Positions 50,832 through 57,209 of a stretch of 64,000 nucleotides of DNA are shown here, one piece after another. Positions within the stretch are counted from its first letter, which is position 1. The number at the start of each line of letters is the position of its first letter. The notes beneath the pieces were generated by a model. The model saw nothing but the letters and a program-made list of their open reading frames with translations. It did not search any database and had not been told where the DNA came from. This DNA is from Calothrix brevissima NIES-22 (GTDB lineage Bacteria > Cyanobacteriota > Cyanobacteriia > Cyanobacteriales > Nostocaceae). A program made the position numbers and the translations under genes. The stretch spans positions 3,781,083 through 3,845,082 of the forward strand of contig NZ_AP018207.1 of NCBI RefSeq assembly GCF_002367995.1. Reading direction: 5' to 3'.

Positions 50832-51470
50832 ATGACTCTGCGTCTAGGTGATACAGTACCCAACTTTACTCAAGCCTCTACACATGGCGATATAGATTTT
50901 TATGAATGGGCAGGTGACAGCTGGGTAGTGCTGTTTTCTCACCCTGCCGATTTTACACCTGTTTGCACCACCGAATTAGGCACGGTTGCTAAACTAAAAC
51001 CAGAATTTGACAAGCGCAATGTCAAAGCGATCGCTCTCAGCGTTGATGATGTAGAATCTCACAAAGGATGGGTGGGTGATATTGAAGAAACCCAAAGCAC
51101 AACTCTCAACTACCCAATTTTGGCAGATGCAGATCGTAAGGTTTCTGACCTATACGATATGATTCATCCCAATGCTAATGCATCTGTGACAGTGCGATCG
51201 GTTTTTGTCATCGATCCTAACAAAAAGCTACGTCTGAGTTTCACATATCCCCCCAGCACAGGACGCAATTTTGATGAACTGTTGCGAGTCATCGATTCTC
51301 TGCAATTAACAGATAATTACAGCGTAGCTACACCAGCTGACTGGAAAGATGGAGATGATGTAGTAATTGTCCCCTCTTTGAAAGATCCAGAAGTGTTGAA
51401 GGAGAAATTCCCTAAAGGTTACGAGGTAATCAAACCTTACTTGCGCATGACACCCCAGCCTAACAAGTAA
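50832..51470 (+). CDS. 1-Cys peroxiredoxin (Prx6 family)
   Basis: A 212-residue thiol peroxidase that reduces H2O2 and organic peroxides in the cytosol. The peroxidatic Cys lies in HPADFTPVCTTELG (about residue 47), with the supporting Arg in SVTVRSVFVIDP. The long C-terminal domain (TPADWKDGDDVVIVPS through RMTPQPNK) is that of the Prx6 type rather than 2-Cys enzymes. The start has AAGGAAG upstream. It is a single gene with a clean terminator 33 bp downstream. Confidence 0.92.
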   Translation: MTLRLGDTVPNFTQASTHGDIDFYEWAGDSWVVLFSHPADFTPVCTTELGTVAKLKPEFDKRNVKAIALSVDDVESHKGWVGDIEETQSTTLNYPILADADRKVSDLYDMIHPNANASVTVRSVFVIDPNKKLRLSFTYPPSTGRNFDELLRVIDSLQLTDNYSVATPADWKDGDDVVIVPSLKDPEVLKEKFPKGYEVIKPYLRMTPQPNK

Positions 51471-51502
51471 GTCTGAAAATCATTTTCTATTGTCTGTTTT
51501 TC

Positions 51503-51537
51503 AGGCGCGAAGGTAAAACTTTGCGCCTTTATATTTA
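51503..51537 (+). terminator. Intrinsic terminator of the peroxiredoxin gene
   Basis: AGGCGCGAAG pairs with CTTTGCGCCT (one G-U) around a 6-base loop, followed by TTATATTT. Confidence 0.8.
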
Positions 51538-51576
51538 TGCGTGAAAATAAAGATAAAAGTTAGTCTGGTAAGCATT

Positions 51577-52161
51577 ATGTTCTCATCTCCCTTGGTGTTG
51601 CAAATTCCACCATCAATGCAAATGACAGACGAACAATTCTTTGAGTTTTGTCAAGTAAATCGTGACTTACGTATTGAGCGTAATACATTAGGAGAGATAT
51701 CAATTATGCCACCCACGGGTTCAGAGTCTGGCAATCGTAACTTCAATATTGCCTTACAGGTAGGAGTTTGGGCAGAAAAAGATGGTACAGGTATTTGTTT
51801 TGACTCTAGTACAGGATTTAAGCTATCAAATGGTGCAGATAGATCCCCTGATGTTTCTTGGATGAAATTAGAACGTTGGAATACTTTGTCTCCTGAACAA
51901 CAACAAAGATTTGCACCTATTTGTCCAGATTTTGTGATTGAATTGCGATCGCCTAGCGATAATCTCCAACCTCTCAAGGATAAAATGGCAGAATATATGC
52001 GCGAAGCAGGAATACAATTAGGCTGGTTAATCGATCGCCAAAATCATCAAGTTTATGTTTACCGTCCTGGGTTATCTACAGAATGTTTAGATAATCCTGA
52101 TACAGTAAGTGGCAATCCGGTGTTACCTGGGTTTATTTTGAATATGAGTAAAGTTTGGTAA
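51577..52161 (+). CDS. Uma2-family putative endonuclease
   Basis: A 194-residue Uma2/DUF820 protein. The start is placed at ATG 51577 (MFSSPLVLQIPPS), a normal N terminus for the family; the longer GTG start at 51541 adds only a Lys-rich tail. Family blocks are MTDEQFFEFCQVN, IMPPTGSESGNRN, RSPDVSW, CPDFVIELRSPSDNL with the nuclease-like D and ExR, and KMAEYMREAGIQLGWLIDR. Cellular role unknown. It is convergent with the dynamin-J gene. Confidence 0.85.
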   Translation: MFSSPLVLQIPPSMQMTDEQFFEFCQVNRDLRIERNTLGEISIMPPTGSESGNRNFNIALQVGVWAEKDGTGICFDSSTGFKLSNGADRSPDVSWMKLERWNTLSPEQQQRFAPICPDFVIELRSPSDNLQPLKDKMAEYMREAGIQLGWLIDRQNHQVYVYRPGLSTECLDNPDTVSGNPVLPGFILNMSKVW

Positions 52162-52276: not shown

Positions 52277-54514
52277 TTAATCAGATAAAATGGTATAAGC
52301 TTCATTAATTAATCGCATCTTTTCTTGAGCTTGTTTTTGTAATTGTGGTTGATTCACAAATAAATCTGGATGCCATTTTTTTACTAAGCTTTTATAAGCC
52401 TGTTTCACTTCATTAATTGATACACCAGGCTGTAAACCTAATATATTATAGGCGCGAGTAATTTTATCTTTTTCTGCTTGATTTTTCGGTTGCTGCGGTG
52501 CTTTATTACTTTGGGATGAATTCTGCTGTTGTTTGTTAGCTTGATAACCAGGAGAACGCATTTCTGCTTTCATTCTTGCTATCTCTTGATCGATTTCCCA
52601 ATTGCGAAAATTTGTGTCTACTTCTGCGGGATTGGGTGAGGTTGAAGCTTTGGGTGGAGGAGATGTATTCACGCGCTGATTTGAATTGACTTGATTAGTC
52701 TCAGCAGTTTTATAGGAATATCTATATGTTGAGGATGTAGAATTACTCGCTTTTTCTTTTTGAGAATAAGTTGTTTGTTCCTTTTCAACTGGTGGGGTAT
52801 ATGGTATATATTTAGGTATTTCCCGATAAGATTGATAATTTGTCGGTATTTTAGCTTTATTTAACTCTTGGAGTAATTGATTAAAACTAATTTGTAATTG
52901 TTGCAAATCTTTTCTTTTATTGGCGATTTCTAGGGGTTCTGGACTACCAGAAAAACGAGTTACCCTTTTAGCTTTATACTCAAATTCTGCTAAAATTGCT
53001 AATCCTTGATTGCTCAATTCAGTGAAATAATCTTCAGTCACGCCTATGCAGATTTTCGCCACTTGCTGATGATAGGATTCCTGCGCTGATTTATCGTCAG
53101 TTTCTTGAATATTTTTGTTTAATAAATAAGAAATACTCCCAACTACCGCCGCACCTACAGGCCCCCCTAATAACCAACCTATACCACCACCTACGGCAAT
53201 TGCACCAGCAGGTTCTGTTAAATCGTTATTACTCCCTGGTTTTGGTGGTAATGTAATTTGTGGTTCGCTAGGTAAGGAAATAGATAAATCTTCTGGCCTT
53301 TCTTCTTTAAAAAATTCGTAAGCTTGATACAGCCATTTCATAATATTTAGTTGTAACTCGCTGAGGTCTTTTTTTAAAGTACCAAATTGCCAAGTTTTAA
53401 ATTTATCTTCGGCAATTGCAACTGTAGCATCAGTTTGATATTTCTTAAGCAGATTTGGTAATTCTAGCCAATTGCGTAATTCAGTAACACTTTTATTTAA
53501 ACCTTGTTGAATTAAATTAGCGGCTTTTTGTTTAACTTCAATTTTTGCAGTTTCTTTCTCATCAAAAGACTTAACTTCCTTGAGTAAAAGCTCAATTTTT
53601 GCTTGTAAATTTAATTGAATTTGGGAAGCGATCGCCTGCACTCGCGGTAATCGCACATCACCCCGATTTTGTTGTAAAATAGTGACTATATTTTGCAAAG
53701 CTGCTTCAAAGGTTGCTAACCCACTACTCGTAGCACCAGCAGCATCACCTTTTAATCTCGCTCTTAACGCAGGTAACGCATCCACCCGATATAAATTACT
53801 AAATCCTGGCGGTAACTCAGCGCGAAAACTTTCCGCAACAAATAACAGGCGATTTTGTACTTGCTGTTGTTCTTCGGGTTCTAGCAAGTTAATAAAATTA
53901 GCGACGAAAATAACTGTTTTAATACCCCTATCTAATAGCCAATCGCGCAGGTTTTCCCGTTCGCCTAAAGTCATTAACTTGCGTGCATCAAGTAATTGTA
54001 CTACCAAATCTGTAGATAAAAGGCGATCGCGTACTATAATATCTTGGGCTTCGCGATCGTTTGTACCAGGTAAATCTAATAATTCTATACCCCTAGCTAA
54101 AAACGGATGGGGACAAAAAACTTCTACAGATGCTACATCTTGGCGCATCTGTCTGTTACCATCCAAAATTGCATATTGCTGTAAAATTTCGGTACCACTA
54201 CGATAAATTTCGGTACCATCTCTTAACATAATTCGCGTGCGTAAATCGCTACCATATTTAACAGTAATCGCCGCGCCTGTAGTGGGAATTAAATCAATTG
54301 GTAAAGTGCGATTTCCTAAAATGGCATTTAATAAAGTTGATTTACCATGATTAAAAGGGCCAAAGACTGCAATCTGAAAGTTAGGATTAGTCAGATAATG
54401 AGAAATAGTGTTGATATCTTGAGATAGTTGTGAATTGCGCTCTAGGTTTAGCAATCTCGATGCTGATTTAAGTGTATTGACTAAATCCTGGTAACTTTCA
54501 GATTGTTTTTGCAT
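52277..54514 (-). CDS. Dynamin-like GTPase fused to a C-terminal J-domain
   Basis: A 745-residue protein. The N-terminal GTPase has G1 GPFNHGKST (residues 52-60), switch I TTGAAIT and G3 DLPGTND. G4 is unclear (ANFINLL in place of a canonical NKxD). A helical trunk with a predicted hydrophobic, Gly-rich paddle follows (AGAIAVGGGIGWLLGG and onward), then a Ser/Gln/Pro-rich linker (about 560-675). A DnaJ domain closes the protein (about 680-745), with the essential HPD at 715-717 in KKWHPDLF. The dynamin part should bind and bend membranes; the J-domain should call an Hsp70. It lies 278 bp downstream of the BDLP gene on the same strand, and is likely a partner. Confidence 0.85.
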   Translation of the reverse strand: MQKQSESYQDLVNTLKSASRLLNLERNSQLSQDINTISHYLTNPNFQIAVFGPFNHGKSTLLNAILGNRTLPIDLIPTTGAAITVKYGSDLRTRIMLRDGTEIYRSGTEILQQYAILDGNRQMRQDVASVEVFCPHPFLARGIELLDLPGTNDREAQDIIVRDRLLSTDLVVQLLDARKLMTLGERENLRDWLLDRGIKTVIFVANFINLLEPEEQQQVQNRLLFVAESFRAELPPGFSNLYRVDALPALRARLKGDAAGATSSGLATFEAALQNIVTILQQNRGDVRLPRVQAIASQIQLNLQAKIELLLKEVKSFDEKETAKIEVKQKAANLIQQGLNKSVTELRNWLELPNLLKKYQTDATVAIAEDKFKTWQFGTLKKDLSELQLNIMKWLYQAYEFFKEERPEDLSISLPSEPQITLPPKPGSNNDLTEPAGAIAVGGGIGWLLGGPVGAAVVGSISYLLNKNIQETDDKSAQESYHQQVAKICIGVTEDYFTELSNQGLAILAEFEYKAKRVTRFSGSPEPLEIANKRKDLQQLQISFNQLLQELNKAKIPTNYQSYREIPKYIPYTPPVEKEQTTYSQKEKASNSTSSTYRYSYKTAETNQVNSNQRVNTSPPPKASTSPNPAEVDTNFRNWEIDQEIARMKAEMRSPGYQANKQQQNSSQSNKAPQQPKNQAEKDKITRAYNILGLQPGVSINEVKQAYKSLVKKWHPDLFVNQPQLQKQAQEKMRLINEAYTILSD

Positions 54515-54716
54515 ATTTTTCTAATTTTATATTGTGTATGCAAATTTATGGTCAATTGCAACATACAGATAAACACAGATTTTTATCGGTTTATATCTGT
54601 GTTTTAATTCTTTATTTATTAGTATCGCCTAAGATGAGCATAGCCTAACTTGCTTTTCCAAGGTGAGCTATAAAATCTTACTTAGGGTGAGAATATGGGT
54701 ACTTTTCTCTCTGTGT

Positions 54717-54776
54717 TCTCTGTGTCTCTGCGGTTAAAAAATATAATATTTTATTCAACCACAGAGACGCAGAGGC
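54717..54776. repeat. CTCTGTG...CACAGAG inverted repeat between the dynamin genes
   Basis: CTCTGTGTCTCTGCGGTT faces AACCACAGAGACGCAGAG with two mismatches; the loop is A+T-rich. CTCTGCG-type repeats also occur near 23870, 28697 and 49346. It could act as a weak terminator after BDLP. Confidence 0.65.
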
Positions 54777-54792
54777 GCAGAGATAAGAGAAT

Positions 54793-56874
54793 TTAACTAT
54801 AGTAAGCGATTAAGTTACTATAAGCAGCTTCAATCTTTTGTAATTGCTCTATCACCTGTTCCTGCAAACTTTTCAGCCGCTTTAATTCACCTTCGCGATT
54901 AATTTCTTGTGTGGCTTTTTGCTTGAGGAGATTATCTAATTCCGATTTGCGAGATGTGATATCGTCGTTGATTCGCTTGCTCACTTCTCTTTCATAAACA
55001 TCAAAACATTCTTTAACTGCATCATATACAGTTTGCGATTGCTCGTGAGCTACTTGGGGTAGGTGTTTAACTAACTCTTTCTTAGCGGTTTTTACTAATT
55101 CTTTCCGCGCTTGATCTGCTTGGAGAAAGCCAACACCTAAACCTAACAATGCAAAGCCAATCGGCCCGAGAAAAATACCTGTTACTGCTGTAATTATACC
55201 GCCAATACCAATGACAGTGAAGTAATTTAATAAGATATTTTTCCAATCAAATCCTGCGCCAGCTAACGCTACACCAGCTAAATTACCTCGCGATAAAGAT
55301 AACAACCCCATCGCCCATTTTGCCCATCCGGGAGAGTTATCATCTTCAGTAGTAGCTGATGCATGTACTTTGACTTGTTGTCCGGTTAATTTTTCGGTAA
55401 TTTGGTCTGTAACTTGGCTATAAGATGCGCCATATTGTGCAGCACTTACAGAAAGTTCTCTAAATGCGCCATTGATATCTTTTTCTGCTGTTAAAGTCCA
55501 AGCCGAAAATTTATCGGTAATGTATTGCTCAAATGCTTTTTGCAAAGCAGTATTAAAAGCATCTCGCTTTCCACTACTGAGGAAATCGAATAAATTTAAC
55601 TCTGGTTGATAACGTAAGAAATCGGTTTCAAAGGTATCGCCTAAGCCTAAAACATAGCTGCGGAATGATTCAGAAATTTTTCTCGCTTGGGTGTCTCTGG
55701 TGTTGATGATTTCTTTTTGAAATTGATCGCGGATATTTGTCAACTTTTTAAATTCTGGTTCTACAGAATCAATTTTTTGTTTCAATTCATTGACATCTTT
55801 ATCCAGCAATGGTAAACGTCTATCTATGGCTTCGCGAGTGTGATTACAAGCTTGTCGCGCTAAAGTTCTTACTTGTCGCAATTCCGCGATCGCGCGTTCT
55901 CTAGTCAAAAAAGTATTTAAAGATCCCATAAACTCAGGAAATCCAGTCCCAGTTAAATCAGCTTCGGGATTTTTTAATCTTTTTCTCAGTGCTTGAATTG
56001 AGGAAAGTTCAAATACACGTTCATTGTAAATGCTCTGTCCATCTATATAGCAATATTCTGCCAAATTCGCCTGAAATACTTGTCTTAATCTTGCTTCGGC
56101 GGCGCTTAATTCTTCCACGTCATCAGGATCTATGAGTGATTCTTTAACCTGATCCCAAGCATTAATTAAAAAGAAAACACTCAATCCTCGACCTTTAATG
56201 TAATTTTCTAAATAGCGACGCTCACCTAAAGTACAAGGTTGAGATGCTCTCATGACAAACAAAATTGCATGACAATTATTGACATATCCTAAAGATAATT
56301 CATTCCGCGCTTCAGTATCATTTAACCCAGGACTGTCAACAATTTCAATACCCTTTTCTAAAAGAGCTAAGGGATATTCAACCACAGCATAATCAACATC
56401 AGGAAAAGCTTGTTTTTTCTCCTGTTCTAATTTCTTCGCTTCTGCTGGATCGATAGTATATTTATATTTAAAACTTTGAAAATCTAGCTGTTGCGGACTT
56501 TTACCATCATTAAAGTGAATTGTGACTTTTTTCTCCGGCCCGTAGCGTAAAACTGTTAATACAGCAGTACAAGGATTCACATCACTGGGTAATAAATTCT
56601 CACCAATTAAGGCGTTAAGAAACGTACTTTTACCTCGTTTCATATCGCCTAATACTAATAGGCGAAATACACCTTTTTGCAGATTTTTACTAGCTGCTGT
56701 AATATCTTCAATATCTCGTTCTAAACTCAGTTTACCAGAAGAAGATTCACCAGCTAATTCTGCTTGATTAATTGTGTCAGCAAGTTGGCTTAAACATACA
56801 GCCATTTTTGCTCTTACTTGCGCTACACGTTCTAAATCGTTGAGAAATTTGTCAGCCGCAACTTGATTAGTCAT
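54793..56874 (-). CDS. bdlp: Bacterial dynamin-like protein BDLP
   Basis: A 693-residue dynamin-family GTPase, the same length as Nostoc punctiforme BDLP, whose structure is known, and clearly its orthologue by sequence. G1 is GDMKRGKST (residues 76-84), switch I Thr lies in NPCTAV, G3 is DSPGLND and the specificity region is LINAWDQ. The helical neck and trunk follow (about 320-690). The membrane-inserting paddle is the hydrophobic stretch about 567-606 (FTVIGIGGIITAVTG). It polymerises on and tubulates membranes upon GTP binding. It lies 14 bp after a small coiled-coil membrane protein gene and upstream of the dynamin-J gene. Confidence 0.93.
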   Translation of the reverse strand: MTNQVAADKFLNDLERVAQVRAKMAVCLSQLADTINQAELAGESSSGKLSLERDIEDITAASKNLQKGVFRLLVLGDMKRGKSTFLNALIGENLLPSDVNPCTAVLTVLRYGPEKKVTIHFNDGKSPQQLDFQSFKYKYTIDPAEAKKLEQEKKQAFPDVDYAVVEYPLALLEKGIEIVDSPGLNDTEARNELSLGYVNNCHAILFVMRASQPCTLGERRYLENYIKGRGLSVFFLINAWDQVKESLIDPDDVEELSAAEARLRQVFQANLAEYCYIDGQSIYNERVFELSSIQALRKRLKNPEADLTGTGFPEFMGSLNTFLTRERAIAELRQVRTLARQACNHTREAIDRRLPLLDKDVNELKQKIDSVEPEFKKLTNIRDQFQKEIINTRDTQARKISESFRSYVLGLGDTFETDFLRYQPELNLFDFLSSGKRDAFNTALQKAFEQYITDKFSAWTLTAEKDINGAFRELSVSAAQYGASYSQVTDQITEKLTGQQVKVHASATTEDDNSPGWAKWAMGLLSLSRGNLAGVALAGAGFDWKNILLNYFTVIGIGGIITAVTGIFLGPIGFALLGLGVGFLQADQARKELVKTAKKELVKHLPQVAHEQSQTVYDAVKECFDVYEREVSKRINDDITSRKSELDNLLKQKATQEINREGELKRLKSLQEQVIEQLQKIEAAYSNLIAYYS

Positions 56875-56888
56875 ATTGACTCTCTAAA

Positions 56889-57209
56889 TTAAGGTTTATT
56901 TTTGGGAGATTCCAGAAACAGCTTGTAAGCCATCCAAACCAGCGCGCCAAACATCACAATTCCCGCAACAGTTGCGGCTATCCTCGCAGCAACCAAAACC
57001 GCCACACCAATTCCAAAAAGCTGTAAACCAAGAATGGCTTTTTTCATCCAAGGTTGAGAGAACTTTTCTGACGGATGCTTGACAGTTTTATGAAAAGGTG
57101 CATTAGAAGGATTGAGATCCGCTTCCATTTCCCGAAGTCTTAATTCCACTTCGCGCTGTCTGAGATCGCGTTCGCGCTGTTCTAAGTCATGATTGCGATC
57201 GCCTGCCAT
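56889..57209 (-). CDS. Small coiled-coil membrane protein preceding BDLP
   Basis: A 106-residue protein. Residues about 8-31 are a charged helix of heptad-like Arg/Glu/Leu repeats (LEQRERDLRQREVELRLRE), then a linker, then two close hydrophobic helices (AILGLQLFGIGVAVLVAA and IAATVAGIVMFGALVWMAY). The start at 57209 has GAGGTGG upstream. It is separated by 14 bp from BDLP and so should be cotranscribed. The family is not known to me; by position it might anchor or regulate the dynamin. Confidence 0.7.
   Translation of the reverse strand: MAGDRNHDLEQRERDLRQREVELRLREMEADLNPSNAPFHKTVKHPSEKFSQPWMKKAILGLQLFGIGVAVLVAARIAATVAGIVMFGALVWMAYKLFLESPKNKP

Follow-up and report, generated by a model that had tools for sequence, protein, structure and literature searches.

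The closest described relative of the system considered here is the bacterial dynamin-like protein BDLP (BDLP1) of Nostoc punctiforme, for which structures have been solved (PDB 2j68, 2j69, 2w6d). BDLP1 is encoded in tandem with a second dynamin-like protein (DLP), BDLP2, across a gap of 525 bp (Michie et al. 2014, PMC4159319), and paired cyanobacterial DLPs have been assigned to clades termed Tandem A and Tandem B, for which the text and a figure legend of the report disagree on the upstream gene (PMC5827413). The protein NosDLP forms assemblies around membranes in vitro and, as a GFP fusion, has been observed at the periphery and, rarely, as septal rings (PMC5827413). In this work, we analyzed a window of 64,000 nucleotides from Calothrix brevissima NIES-22 (contig NZ_AP018207.1, forward-strand positions 3,781,083 to 3,845,082; the positions given below are those of the window), in which the place of BDLP2 beside BDLP is taken by DLP-J, a dynamin-like protein of 745 residues with a C-terminal J-domain, encoded as one open frame on the minus strand (52277..54514) (compare PMC5827413, PMC4159319). 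The BDLP gene lies upstream on the same strand (54793..56874, 693 residues); its product is an orthologue of the solved N. punctiforme BDLP, with a full-length match at 88% identity, and contains the Pfam domains Dynamin_N and PF21808 (bacterial dynamin helical domain, E-value 7e-184). We propose, with a probability of roughly 45%, that DLP-J remodels the BDLP/DLP assembly by bringing DnaK to it.

Three genome samples were searched, comprising 192 genomes of the family Nostocaceae, 148 of the order Cyanobacteriales and 291 of the class Cyanobacteriia (family, order and class have this meaning throughout), together with a GTDB scan for individual loci, which were drawn from the best 80 of 439 confirmed matches; the samples overlap in part with the GTDB-scan set (G121, G130, G079 and others). 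In the family sample, 109 genomes match DLP-J at an E-value of 1e-30, 101 of them with an intact fusion and 8 with fragments or decayed copies. Because 101 of the 192 genomes carry it intact, the fusion with the J-domain is a real, conserved architecture, and an assembly error, a concern already raised in the preliminary description of this locus, is excluded, as is a chance fusion. No intact unfused orthologue was seen in the 192 family genomes; four of them hold a distant second DLP copy (39-57% identical) that lacks the J-domain. In the order sample, only four genomes have the fusion (G000, G077, G094, G111), all of them among the eight that belong to the family. Another 45 order genomes, all of other families, contain a homologue at an E-value of 1e-80 or better, a count from which a fragment of an unfused DLP in G127 is left out. 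In 44 of these 45 the match stops short of the linker, and in the remaining one, G015, it extends to residue 638, the frame of G015 itself being 551 residues long. A DLP was found in 42 genomes of the class sample, where the match reaches the J-domain solely within the family (8 genomes). The genera of the GTDB-scan set include Nostoc, Anabaena, Calothrix, Cylindrospermum, Chlorogloeopsis and Dolichospermum. These genera are heterocyst formers.

Linkage of the fusion to BDLP, which the preliminary description had drawn from the single locus, extends across genomes. BDLP is present in all 101 family genomes with an intact fusion, and among the 104 family genomes with BDLP, 103 carry DLP-J or a piece of it (the exception is G128), so the pairing of DLP-J with BDLP is nearly obligate in this sample. 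The GTDB-scan set shows BDLP upstream on the same strand at 64 of 65 DLP loci, within 700 nucleotides in 61 of the 64, and the remaining locus is cut by a contig end. The position that characterizes Tandem A, next to a Tandem B DLP orthologous to NosDLP, is thus occupied at 64/65 loci and in 101/101 fused family genomes, the Tandem A label being assigned to DLP-J by position. A single BDLP copy was found at 57 of 58 fused loci, the 58th being cut by a contig end. No BDLP identical to that of N. punctiforme was found among the genomes searched (best 98%); the genomes with this closest BDLP all carry the fusion (3/3), 125, 483 and 494 nucleotides downstream.

Several individual loci were recorded alongside this pattern, some of them decayed. 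Fischerella muscicola (L142/L167) has a remnant with the pre-J helix and J-domain and no G domain, with no BDLP match listed there, and at L150 an intact DLP-J accompanies a BDLP in pieces. The genome of the window itself contains a second BDLP/DLP pair (L042, G000:C1:8198000-8217000), formed by a BDLP of 960 residues with a long N-terminal extension and a shortened DLP of 424 residues without a J-domain, which is 57% identical to DLP-J over residues 11-338.

The translation of DLP-J contains the motifs GPFNHGKST, DLPGTND and HPD, as the preliminary description had stated, and Pfam places them in two domains of the one frame. Dynamin_N covers residues 48-206 (E-value 5e-23; 82.4 bits against a curated cut-off of 27), and the G domain with its P-loop GPFNHGKST and DLPGTND, defined by Pfam and conserved residues, is encoded at 53897..54373 (all features of DLP-J are on the minus strand). 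DnaJ covers residues 688-745 (E-value 5e-14; 52.5 bits against a cut-off of 27.8) with an intact HPD at residues 715-717 (52364..52372), which matches a class C (J-domain only) J-protein. A full-length AlphaFold2 model based on 39 aligned homologues (mean predicted local distance difference test score, pLDDT, 76; predicted template modelling score, pTM, 0.54) arranges the chain as a G domain, trunk helices (around residues 284-402, 53309..53665), a hydrophobic tip, returning trunk helices (residues 481-553, 52856..53074), near which the unfused homologues stop, a disordered linker (residues 554-628, 52631..52855; pLDDT mostly about 30), an isolated pre-J helix (residues 629-651, 52562..52630; motif F-x-x-W-E-x-D-x-E-I-x-x-M-K from residue 636) and a J-domain with three main helices (residues 684-745, 52280..52465). 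The top Foldseek matches of the model are BDLP 2j69 and 2j68 (E-value 5e-17), with a low whole-chain TM score (about 0.3). Concerning the paddle-like segment proposed previously, the hydrophobic, glycine-rich stretch does exist in the sequence (around residues 430-465, 53120..53227); its placement between the trunk helices, with a helix at 452-467, is modelled at low confidence. The model agrees with dynamin architecture, where a long trunk of helices bearing an inserted membrane tip comes after the G domain, the tip itself being provisional.

A second AlphaFold2 model, of the DLP-J tail alone (mean pLDDT 68), has J-domains as its top-ranked solved folds, including the DnaK-bound J-domain of DnaJ (5nro_B), on which it is superimposed at 1.4 Å over 58 residues with an E-value of 0.014, no fold match reaching 0.001. 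Two roles considered for the pre-J helix were rejected: the tail model provides no confident docking by which the helix might hold the J-domain, and a hydrophobic moment of about 0.10 with a net charge of 0 does not support an amphipathic membrane binder.

The J-domain of the fusion is well conserved. The HPD is intact at 57 of 58 fused loci in the GTDB-scan set, and the sole fused J-domain lacking it, that of Sphaerospermopsis aphanizomenoides (L198), reads HHD. Within the J-domain, K704 and Y707 are found in 46 of 46 aligned sequences, and a lysine or arginine is found at positions 712 and 713 in 46 and 43 of the 46, respectively; the pre-J residues F636, E640, E644 and K649 are likewise present in 46/46. 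The median ratios of nonsynonymous to synonymous substitution rates (dN/dS) among 34 fused sequences, for which, as for the genome counts, shared ancestry makes the data points non-independent, are 0.08 for the G domain, 0.15 for the pre-J motif, 0.17 for the J-domain, 0.20 for the tip, 0.22-0.28 for the trunk and 0.61 for the linker. Judged by these ratios, only the G domain of DLP-J is under stronger constraint than its J-domain and pre-J motif. All 24 dynamin-linked or orphan J-domain sequences have the pre-J motif, versus none of 32 others, a contrast that is only descriptive, as the pattern was derived from those same linked sequences and later relaxed; the first version matched 44 of 58 fused sequences, the other 14 having N in place of D.

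The nucleotide-binding site of DLP-J is unusual. In the canonical G4 motif, (N/T)-x-x-D, the final aspartate reads the guanine base. In other G proteins, GTP specificity is reduced when the G4 aspartate is replaced by asparagine. In all 108 aligned DLP homologues, fused or unfused, G4 reads N-F-x-N without an aspartate (N-F-I-N in DLP-J, residues 206-209, 53888..53899), versus an invariant N-A-W-D in 15 of 15 BDLP sequences; since the profile alignment (hhalign) leaves a gap beside the motif, the pairing with the BDLP motif was made by spacing, and no aspartate lies within the motif. By its sequence, DLP-J is accordingly not filed as an ordinary GTP-specific GTPase. The altered motif suggests that its binding of guanine nucleotides is weak or of a different kind and, because the aspartate is missing, that DLP-J may be the regulatory half of the pair, with BDLP as the GTP-driven subunit. 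The same feature bears on a report of LeoA without GTPase activity (PMC9950537).

The relationship between DLPs and J-proteins outside the fused form points to how the fusion arose. At six loci of the GTDB-scan set, representing three lineages, an unfused DLP is followed on the same strand by a separate J gene, at a distance of 167 nucleotides in Oscillatoria PCC 10802, 71-79 nucleotides in three Laspinema and Oscillatoria HE19RPO, and 4 nucleotides in Aliterella. The free J-proteins and the fused form have in common the helix motif F-x-x-W-E-x-D-x-E. A J-domain tree was built from 56 sequences and 69 columns with one J-domain per locus, including 15 fused and 8 neighboring J-domains and leaving out L068 (no HPD) and L123 (broken frame). 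In this tree, the 23 dynamin-linked J-domains and one orphan (Kastovskya) form one clade (bootstrap 95; Shimodaira-Hasegawa-like approximate likelihood ratio test, SH-aLRT, 87), within which the 15 fused J-domains form a subclade (96/89). All of the remaining 32 J-domains, among them those encoded by the same genome, branch outside the dynamin-linked clade and have no pre-J motif. In a DLP tree (quick search, midpoint root, 65 of 108 sequences, the fused ones reduced from 71 to 29 by an 85% identity filter and the broken L203 dropped), the fused form is again one clade (SH-aLRT 100), and the DLPs with a neighboring J gene fall in three places. In the class sample, open-frame matches spanning the helix and J-domain are confined to the order; in G452 and G441 such matches run through stop codons.

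As the dynamin-linked J-domains sampled form one clade with a common pre-J motif, the fusion probably joined dynamin and J genes that were already neighbors. The simplest history would start from an old link of one dedicated J-protein with the DLP, which was lost several times and led to one fusion event early among the heterocyst formers; a transfer of both genes together, or more than one gain, would be a less simple course. Neither this likely origin nor the altered G4 motif had been foreseen in the preliminary description. Other observations concern the free J genes themselves. The Aliterella atlantica J gene (L217:8004-8444), which starts 4 nucleotides past the dynamin stop codon, encodes a J-protein in which the pre-J helix occurs twice, in similar form, and a broken relative of 124 residues at L134 also has two copies, with no dynamin match in that stretch. 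J genes of the same type occur without a DLP in G014 and G045, one of the two being broken, and two BDLP copies are present at five of the six loci with a separate J gene (L155, L156, L158, L165, L186, L217).

These observations can be combined into a model. In the conserved BDLP tandem of cyanobacteria, DLP-J would be the second dynamin. Its trunk and G domain would co-assemble with BDLP on the cytoplasmic membrane, so that DLP-J joins or caps the BDLP assembly through its dynamin part. The flexible arm would hold out the J-domain, which would recruit DnaK and stimulate its ATPase; DnaK would then be loaded onto the BDLP/DLP-J assembly and ATP used to pull the assembly apart or to reset it. 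Precedents for such a step are CDJ2 and HSP70B acting on VIPP1 (PMC10602608), auxilin and Hsc70 acting on clathrin (PMC4436892), and a DLP clade with an adjacent DnaK gene (PMC5827413). Recruitment of DnaK is very probable, given the intact J-domain and the general biology of such domains. That the client is the dynamin assembly is somewhat better than an even guess, and that the outcome is mainly disassembly and not assembly is put forward tentatively, at slightly less than even odds. Since the J-domain is conserved with its HPD, the pairing with BDLP is near-obligate and linked J genes occur in some lineages where the dynamin is unfused, an Hsp70 step at the dynamin, as the preliminary description had suggested, is the best reading of the locus.

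Several results weigh against this proposal, and the first of them counts against uncoating by Hsp70 as a universal step. Six of the 45 order genomes with an unfused DLP have a free J gene at the locus, and no J gene of the pre-J type was found there in the other 39, in a search that lists matches down to about 4e-10, so that divergent J neighbors could escape; of the 26 unfused loci L013-L038, 24 were inspected with a J query, and none of the 24 has a J gene within 1500 bases. The BDLP/DLP pair can thus work without a J-protein. Neither an intact fusion nor BDLP is present in 88 of the 192 family genomes, six of which keep a DLP-J fragment, and the function is therefore dispensable. None of the genome's own Hsp70 matches lies in the window, and a listing of 20 neighborhoods includes no Hsp70 gene beside the DLP. 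Confident docking of the J arm is seen in neither AlphaFold2 model, full-length or tail. Finally, folding and targeting are further roles of J-domains. In the cyanobacterial division protein ZipN, the DnaJ domain is reported to mediate FtsZ-ring localization (PMC7766704).

Four other explanations were weighed against the model of DnaK recruitment to the dynamin pair. DLP-J could be bound to the membrane as a tether and deliver DnaK to sites where the membrane is remodelled or damaged, with other membrane proteins, and not the dynamin coat, as the clients. The long disordered arm of the AlphaFold2 model would suit such delivery, and a linker that evolves fast next to a J-domain and pre-J motif that do not is what a tether would lead one to expect; the J-domain clade is tied to this dynamin and the fusion to BDLP in the family, which points to a client within the pair. 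Delivery is an unlikely reading. It is equally unlikely that the J-domain aids folding or hetero-oligomerization of the large dynamins, as an assembly factor and not an uncoating factor. Hsp70/J systems do drive assembly as well, as for VIPP1 (PMC10602608), and the J-protein is a free neighbor in the same cluster in three lineages, but a folding helper would not need permanent fusion and most unfused homologues in the order lack a J gene. Considerably less probable is a J-domain that serves docking only and acts independently of Hsp70, as may hold for the ZipN DnaJ domain: ZipN without this domain becomes diffuse, so a role in localization is possible (PMC7766704), and the HHD of Sphaerospermopsis would agree with it, but the near-invariance of the HPD and of the four J-domain positions 704, 707, 712 and 713, together with the low dN/dS of the domain, speaks against it. 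Least probable of all is that the cluster serves phage defense or an envelope-stress response in the manner of LeoABC or DynA, with the J-domain sensing or triggering the response, since the PADLOC matches to LeoA/LeoBC (best E-values 3e-12 for DLP-J and 1e-16 for BDLP) score low (44 and 59 bits, in a library without curated cut-offs), two more dynamins of the genome match these models as well, and the fusion forms one clade across the family, unlike a mobile defense island, even though Bacillus DynA is reported to delay lysis after phage infection (PMC9950537).

The cluster begins with a gene for a protein of 106 residues (56889..57209, minus strand), 14 nucleotides before BDLP, so that DLP-J lies downstream of both; the coordinates, strand and lengths of all three genes agree exactly with those given in the preliminary description. 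Judged by eye, the small protein has a coiled-coil-like N-terminus and a hydrophobic segment, and a homologue is present at 53 of 58 fused loci and five of six loci with a separate J gene in the GTDB-scan set. Between BDLP and DLP-J, a near-perfect palindrome (54708-54783) would form a strong hairpin, with a folding energy as RNA of -39.9 kcal/mol (z -8.3); its repeat motif is present in 3 of 63 homologous BDLP-DLP gaps. A simple scan of the coding strand found no terminator between the two genes, the total not being above that of shuffled sequences. Peroxiredoxin and Uma2 genes at 50832-52161 are convergent to the cluster; within the stretches examined, they occur at 26 and 29 of 58 fused loci, respectively. 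Elsewhere, a second DLP pair in G164 (L145) has an Hsp70-like frame of 536 residues (E-value 1e-10 to DnaK) about 3.3 kb from a distant DLP. In the genome of the window, a cluster of divergent Hsp70 (730 residues), LysM, TPR and GrpE-like proteins (L105, G000:C1:5782000-5800000) lies a few kb from a GTPase of 638 residues with a dynamin-like match and a hydrophobic N-terminus. At L107 (7661-10297), a TerB domain is fused to a dynamin-like GTPase in a protein of 878 residues.

The locus offers a concrete, testable answer to the questions of how bacterial dynamins leave membranes and why they are paired. The conserved J-domain of DLP-J should bring DnaK to a pair that includes an orthologue of a structurally well-known dynamin, and the absence of the G4 aspartate suggests a division of labor between the two dynamins. 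Natural variants with no J gene, a J gene next door, one only 4 nucleotides away and a fused J-domain form a series of ready controls. If the proposal is true, a membrane-remodelling dynamin of heterocyst-forming cyanobacteria has a built-in disassembly or reset step.

A bacterial dynamin and a class C J-protein are themselves known kinds of protein, and automatic annotation may well name the J-domain; in the open-access library searched, no paper describes a dynamin/J-domain fusion of this kind in its title or the opening of its abstract, and to that extent the architecture is undescribed. The text of Michie et al. 2014 contains no mention of DnaJ, J domain or heat shock (PMC4159319), nor does the main text of Jilly et al. 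2018 on Tandem A/B mention DnaJ, J-domain or co-chaperone (PMC5827413). DnaJ, J-domain and chaperone are absent from the SynDLP paper (PMC10104851), as are DnaJ and J-domain from a 2023 review (PMC9950537). Among the systems that come closest, the 'Chaperone clade' of cyanobacterial DLPs resembles DLP-J in its link to Hsp70, with a DnaK-domain gene downstream of the dynamin gene; compared by description only, it is another DLP clade, linked to DnaK itself and without a J fusion (PMC5827413). ZipN/Ftn2/ARC6 is, like DLP-J, a cyanobacterial protein linked to membrane remodelling that has a DnaJ domain, but this domain is N-terminal, accompanied by TPR and not by a dynamin, and is reported to serve localization to FtsZ (PMC7766704). 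In the Chlamydomonas chloroplast, the dedicated J-protein CDJ2 with HSP70B and CGE1 sets the oligomeric state of the membrane remodeller VIPP1, which is both assembled and disassembled by this system and also occurs in cyanobacteria (PMC10602608). VIPP1 is an ESCRT-III relative rather than a dynamin, and CDJ2 is a stand-alone protein, unlike the fused J-domain of DLP-J (PMC10602608). Auxilin with Hsc70, the clathrin-uncoating system, offers a functional likeness, as a coat-associated protein with a J-domain brings Hsp70 to a membrane coat; auxilin is not a dynamin and binds the coat of another protein, whereas DLP-J would carry the J-domain on the dynamin itself (PMC4436892). No homology is claimed beyond the J-domain, and the likeness in uncoating is a proposal only. 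In its fullest and rather doubtful form, this proposal would make DLP-J a G4-altered regulatory dynamin with its own Hsp70 arm, in which DnaK and GTP run the assembly and release of a coat, as a bacterial counterpart of clathrin, auxilin and Hsc70 fixed early in heterocyst formers.

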